Shown: positions 26,904 through 27,174 of the stretch, one piece after another | Numbering within the stretch: the stretch's first letter is position 1 | Layout: every line of letters starts with the position of its first letter | Assembly: GCA_031279495.1 (NCBI GenBank) | Contig: JAITIJ010000067.1 | Span: 1-34,845, forward strand | Reading direction: 5' to 3' | DNA: 34,845 bases | Source: Holosporales bacterium | GTDB lineage: Bacteria; Pseudomonadota; Alphaproteobacteria; UBA3830; JAIRMZ01 | The notes under the pieces: model-generated | What the model was told of the DNA's origin: nothing | Databases searched by the model: none | Seen by the model: the letters and a program-made list of their open reading frames with translations, nothing else | Made by a program: the position numbers and the translations under genes

Positions 26904-27113
26904 TTATAGAGCTGCTTGAACCTGGCGCGTCAGCTCGACCAATTCTGGATCTTGGATGCCATGCTCGATCACAACCTTTGCTGCGGTTTGACGTGTTTCA
27001 GGATCTGGATTCTCTAATTGTTCTCGCAAAACATCCGTCGGTGGATGCATCGCTTCTGCATAAAAAGTTGCCAGTGCGGCGATTGATGTTAGTAGTTTAC
27101 AAGTGTTGTTCAT
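26904..27113 (-). CDS. small secreted HEAT-like protein
   Basis: 69 aa from the ATG at 27113, with GGAG eight bases upstream. The track start at 27137 falls at the expected transcription start and is unlikely. A signal peptide (CKLLTSIAALATFYAEA) precedes ~46 residues: VLREQLENPDPETRQTAAKV, then EHGIQDPELVELTRQVQAA. The pattern of two amphipathic helices, with R-x-x-A-A after D-P-E, resembles a single HEAT/ARM-like repeat. The function is unknown; it is probably exported to the periplasm or beyond. Its promoter carries a nine-base homopolymer in the spacer, so expression may switch on and off. Confidence 0.65.
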   Translation of the reverse strand: MNNTCKLLTSIAALATFYAEAMHPPTDVLREQLENPDPETRQTAAKVVIEHGIQDPELVELTRQVQAAL

Positions 27114-27143
27114 TTTCACTCTCCATTTTTTGAACATGAGGGA

Positions 27144-27174
27144 AGTATATCACGTCCCCCCCCCTATTTGTCAA
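27144..27174 (-). promoter_or_regulatory. promoter with a G9/C9 tract in the -35/-10 spacer
   Basis: On the minus strand: TTGACA (27174-27169), a 19-bp spacer and TATACT (27149-27144). The spacer includes nine consecutive G (C on the plus strand, 27156-27164). Both boxes are near consensus; only the spacing is off the 17-18 optimum. Loss of one or two G would give 18 or 17. Such tracts slip during replication, and this arrangement controls several phase-variable genes in other bacteria. The start codon at 27113 fits a leader of ~24 nt. Confidence 0.75.

Follow-up and report, generated by a model that had tools for sequence, protein, structure and literature searches.

Phase variation has been well studied in human pathogens. 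In the Neisseria genes porA, fetA and opc, unstable homopolymers lie between the -10 and -35 elements (PMC2791445). Expression of opc is high with a tract of C12 and lower with C11; across 89 colonies of a meningococcus that was MutS+, the poly-C tract yielded no variants (PMC3447861). In M. hyorhinis, a poly-A tract lies in the promoter region of each vlp gene, and insertions and deletions in this tract switch the gene, according to PMC10502178, which cites Citti and Wise 1995. In the library that we searched, phase variation and Holosporales occurred together in no paper.

The window, that is, the whole stretch of 34,845 nucleotides analysed here, is contig C43 of a 0.96-Mb, 95-contig Holosporales MAG that is 90% complete. 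Its nearest named relatives, reached through the neighbouring SpoIIE-type protein, are the Holosporales MAGs Cd354_bin124 (78%) and Gx481_bin16 (74%); the latter, designated G002, represents a sister genus within the same family. Bin names of the relatives suggest a gut-metagenome series. The host association that the preliminary description had entertained as a possibility suits this lineage, Holosporales being obligate associates of eukaryotes according to PMC11909080. The promoter and gene under study comprise the following elements, of which those from the -35 box to the TG were read directly.

27169 to 27174, minus strand: -35 box, TTGACA
27150 to 27168, minus strand: spacer of 19 bp, AATAGGGGGGGGGACGTGA
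27156 to 27164, minus strand: G9 tract within the spacer
27144 to 27149, minus strand: -10 box, TATACT
27151 to 27152, minus strand: TG of an extended -10 (TGATATACT, TG-A-TATACT)
27135 to 27137, minus strand: in-frame ATG ahead of the start at 27113 and 6 nt past the -10 box, which would give a product of 77 aa (MFKKWRVKMNN...)
27120 to 27124, minus strand: Shine-Dalgarno-like GGAGA, 7 nt (from GGAG) upstream of the ATG at 27113
26904 to 27113, minus strand: 69-aa reading frame from the ATG at 27113, with a signal peptide and one HEAT-like repeat

The near-perfect boxes, the 19-bp spacing and the nine Gs had been described exactly as they are, and the start codon and ribosome site fit the promoter, as claimed; GGAGA or GGAG is common ahead of start codons in the sister genus as well. 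Both the extended -10 and the in-frame ATG at 27137 had been overlooked. This ATG occupies the same position in the five best-preserved copies of the promoter in the genome and is not kept in most sister-genus promoters; it is a possible leaderless start. The G9 tract is the sole G/C run longer than six in the window, where only 0.03 runs of nine or more would be expected in 34.8 kb from the window's own G-after-G frequency. Paralogous promoters have the tract in the same place, which excludes a chance origin. A standard promoter scan allowing spacings of 16-18 bp did not report the promoter, as expected for a 19-bp spacer. With G9 in a spacer of 19, the locus has the run of about nine or more G/C between -35 and -10 that marks opc/porA-type loci, and like opc, porA and fetA it carries this run upstream of a gene for an exported protein. 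Each of the Neisseria cases concerns one gene, for which a relation between tract length and expression is proven, whereas here a perfect -35 box and an extended -10 are found in a family of paralogues.

The preliminary description had treated a single promoter. That promoter is real, but it is actually one member of a multi-copy family: ten copies were read in the same genome, and the signal-peptide region recurs too. The copies are given below by contig.

C43: spacer AATA-G9-ACGTGA, 19 bp; apparently readable gene, 69 aa
C47: spacer AATA-G10-CGTGA, 19 bp; apparently readable gene, cut by the contig end
C55: spacer AATA-G10-TGA, 17 bp; apparently readable gene, 199 aa
C88: spacer AATA-G7TG6-CGTGA, 23 bp; gene looks frameshifted
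C77: spacer AATA-G5TG3-CGTAA, 18 bp; weak -10, TACACC; apparently readable gene, 188 aa
C9: tract GGAG6, spacer 20 bp; degraded
C53: tract G5, spacer 12 bp; degraded
C67: GAAGG in place of the tract, spacer 15 bp; degraded
C94: GGGTACC in place of the tract, spacer 17 bp; start codon ACG; degraded
C38: tract G6TG8, -10 lost; degraded

Spacers across the ten copies thus measure 12, 15, 17, 17, 18, 19, 19, 20 and 23 bp, or are broken, and at least six of the ten look decayed; in the C55 gene, a 164-bp tandem duplication shifts the frame. Among the copies read, TTGACA is found in eight besides C43 and TTGACG in a tenth. The TG of the extended -10 is retained in C43, C47, C55, C88, C9, C53 and C67, and the -10 region TGATATACTTCCCTCATG has exact matches at four places in the genome. 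Flanks are near-identical across copies (TTGACAAATA ... TGATATACTTCCCTCATGTTCAAAAAATGGAGA), the segment from the -35 box to the ATG being almost invariant. When C43, C47, C88 and C77 are aligned, every difference in the length of this segment falls in the tract. Between C43 (G9 plus A) and C47 (G10) the difference is a substitution and the spacing stays at 19 bp; slippage by whole Gs therefore does not account for every tract difference. A multi-copy cassette is a better description of the element than a single switch.

In intracellular bacteria, secreted HEAT/LRR-repeat proteins carry short helical or leucine-rich repeats behind a signal peptide. The 69-aa protein has the same layout but only one repeat: residues 1-21 form the predicted signal peptide, with AEA ahead of M22, and the HEAT-like repeat follows. 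Its match to HEAT_2 (E=0.005; 17.5 versus 27.7 bits) is below the Pfam gathering cut-off, the threshold used for both HEAT families tested (PF02985/PF13646). A homologue in the sister genus (G002:C20), with several repeats of roughly 45 aa, is over the Pfam HEAT cut-off at 60.8 versus 23.5 bits. Together with a signal-peptide pattern conserved throughout the family, this bears out the exported HEAT-like product proposed earlier, and the 69-aa protein is a one-repeat member of a predicted secreted HEAT-like family. Signal peptides were assigned by visual inspection and a rule on hydrophobicity rather than with SignalP. In the family alignment the leader, MNNTCKLLTS..., ends with a small residue before M22, and there is no lipobox cysteine. 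The family numbers a dozen or more genes in G002, with leaders such as MNNFGKLLLLTATCVTLSARGM; one of them (G002:C3:5640) has an in-frame TGA soon after the leader, beyond which the repeat region is open. A search for sequence relation of the family to a named effector found none.

Like Vlp genes, the ten copies share the promoter tract and the leader but differ in their bodies. Going by the source cited above, both systems are multigene exported families with a homopolymer in the promoter region and repeat-containing bodies, and it is on the Vlp side only that tract indels are established as setting transcription. The vlp tracts are poly-A and the genes clustered, whereas here the tracts are poly-G and the copies scattered over contigs of an alphaproteobacterium; the signal peptides lack a lipobox and many copies are decayed.

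In twelve homologous promoters of G002 the spacer never contains more than GG (TTGACAAATGGCAATATATAGAG-CATAAT and similar). Most of these spacers were called at 17-18 bp, single -10 assignments being approximate since they were called by a simple scoring rule. The G002 genome has 97 tracts of G8 or longer and yet none in the twelve homologues, which argues that background poly-G alone does not place a tract there. By comparison with these tractless homologues, the tract is a derived state of the lineage studied here. The orthologous locus itself was not found in the Gx481_bin16 contig, where other genes adjoin dnaQ, and the Cd354_bin124 contig ends before it. No copy of the promoter was found in the same-genus genome G001 (59% complete).

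A strict TTGACA-G7-TAWAMT pattern occurred in one of 385 alphaproteobacterial genomes, the present one, with three matches that all belong to this family; the reversed control gave 0 matches. With a looser pattern applied to 60 relatives, about 10 matches were obtained outside the genome studied, against 6 in the reversed control. Three of the looser matches come from other Holosporales; each of them has a good -10 (TATACT or TATATT) and lies directly upstream of a gene for an unrelated signal-peptide protein.

G028: poly-G spacer 15; predicted exported protein, 480 aa
G038: poly-G spacer 18; predicted exported LRR protein, 416 aa
G011: poly-G spacer 15; predicted exported protein, 244 aa

These three promoters belong to another Holosporales family. 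The recurrence of poly-G spacers is suggestive rather than statistical evidence; the 7 biased sites obtained do not provide a usable background rate of exported genes behind non-poly-G TTGACA promoters.

We give a probability of about 0.5 to the reading in which a dispersed promoter-leader cassette, with a G tract of variable length, undergoes slippage and so causes stochastic expression of an exported helical-repeat family. The C43 promoter would be one copy of this scattered cassette, which would drive small exported, mostly helical-repeat proteins. The GG step of the ancestral spacer would have become a G tract in this lineage, its length now differing by copy. Slipped-strand mispairing at the tract would alter the distance and angle between -35 and -10, and the altered geometry would raise or lower transcription. 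As a result, the set of family members expressed would vary stochastically, and probably by degrees. We infer that slippage would take place within the population, that it would affect transcription and that it may benefit the interaction with the host.

The phase-variable switch originally proposed is plausible, and the proposal is supported in part. In its favour, the geometry is real, the tract differs among paralogues (spacers of 12-23 bp) and it is absent from the sister genus; the proposal is weakened by the extended -10, an intact MutS, a genome-wide excess of poly-G and the decay of family members. An extended -10 may make a promoter tolerant of spacing changes, and in the strong copies it may blunt the effect of spacing on transcription. 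MutS is present and intact in the genome, which rules out mismatch-repair loss as the cause of poly-G and, given that the opc tract was invariant in the 89 MutS+ colonies, counts against active switching. A wider generalization, that poly-G promoter spacers serve Holosporales endosymbionts as contingency switches for repeat proteins that are exported and face the host, would join the dispersed Vlp-like family described here to independent cases in another family of the order, ahead of LRR and other secreted proteins; we regard it as rather doubtful. If true, a multi-copy family with poly-G spacers would offer uncultured endosymbionts a ready way to vary their encounter with the host, an idea testable from existing metagenome reads.

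The tract could also be a neutral by-product, mutational bias piling up poly-G in a spacer that tolerates it as the extended -10 carries the promoter, with no switching involved; we take this seriously, at somewhat under even odds. The genome has about 20 tracts of G9 or longer (up to G14) versus 0.8 expected, mostly outside long reading frames. The relatives G002-G005 and G008 likewise have many tracts of G8 or longer, and 46 poly-G tracts sampled in G002 and G004 were almost never in promoters of exported genes. Given the genome-wide excess, mutational bias alone could have created the tract in an ancestor that was later duplicated, and selection would not be needed to explain why the tract recurs at one position if a single ancestor that carried it gave rise to the copies. 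The decay of several copies and the extended -10 of the strong ones are likewise consistent with neutrality. It accounts less well for a tract at the same place in several copies of one promoter when poly-G-rich G002 has 0 of 12, and for the recurrence of poly-G spacers ahead of unrelated exported proteins in other Holosporales.

Differences in the tract might instead record copying rather than slippage, if the promoter-leader segment were a recombination unit transferred between loci onto different bodies. Over ~90-150 bp at the 5' end, copies with unrelated bodies are 82-91% identical; C88, C77 and C38 share T-interrupted tracts; and in C38 the -35 box and tract continue, from the G run onwards, into a sequence that in C77 lies behind another G13 tract. 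Much of this is accounted for, however, by plain duplication and fast divergence of the bodies, and the C38/C77 junction may be an artefact of chimaeric assembly; we consider copying improbable. Very improbable is an assembly or sequencing error in the G run: homopolymer lengths can be miscalled in a 95-contig draft, and at one contig end (C55:1-31) a G11 run passes into CCCCCCGCGCGGGCGGCCGC, a GC-rich tail that resembles an adapter, but three separate loci each have a run of 9-10 G between conserved flanks. The slippage reading and its competitors apart, C38:10713-10911 and C77:6153-6270 have 104 identical bases after the G tract and differ upstream of it, either because recombination took place at the G run or because the assembly is chimaeric there.

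The idea that poly-G tracts act as switches throughout the genome was rejected: among tracts of G7 or longer, only this promoter family has good boxes on both sides. Use of the G002 and G004 tracts as exported-gene promoters was not seen among those sampled. Contig C54 (37 kb) carries three G12 tracts.
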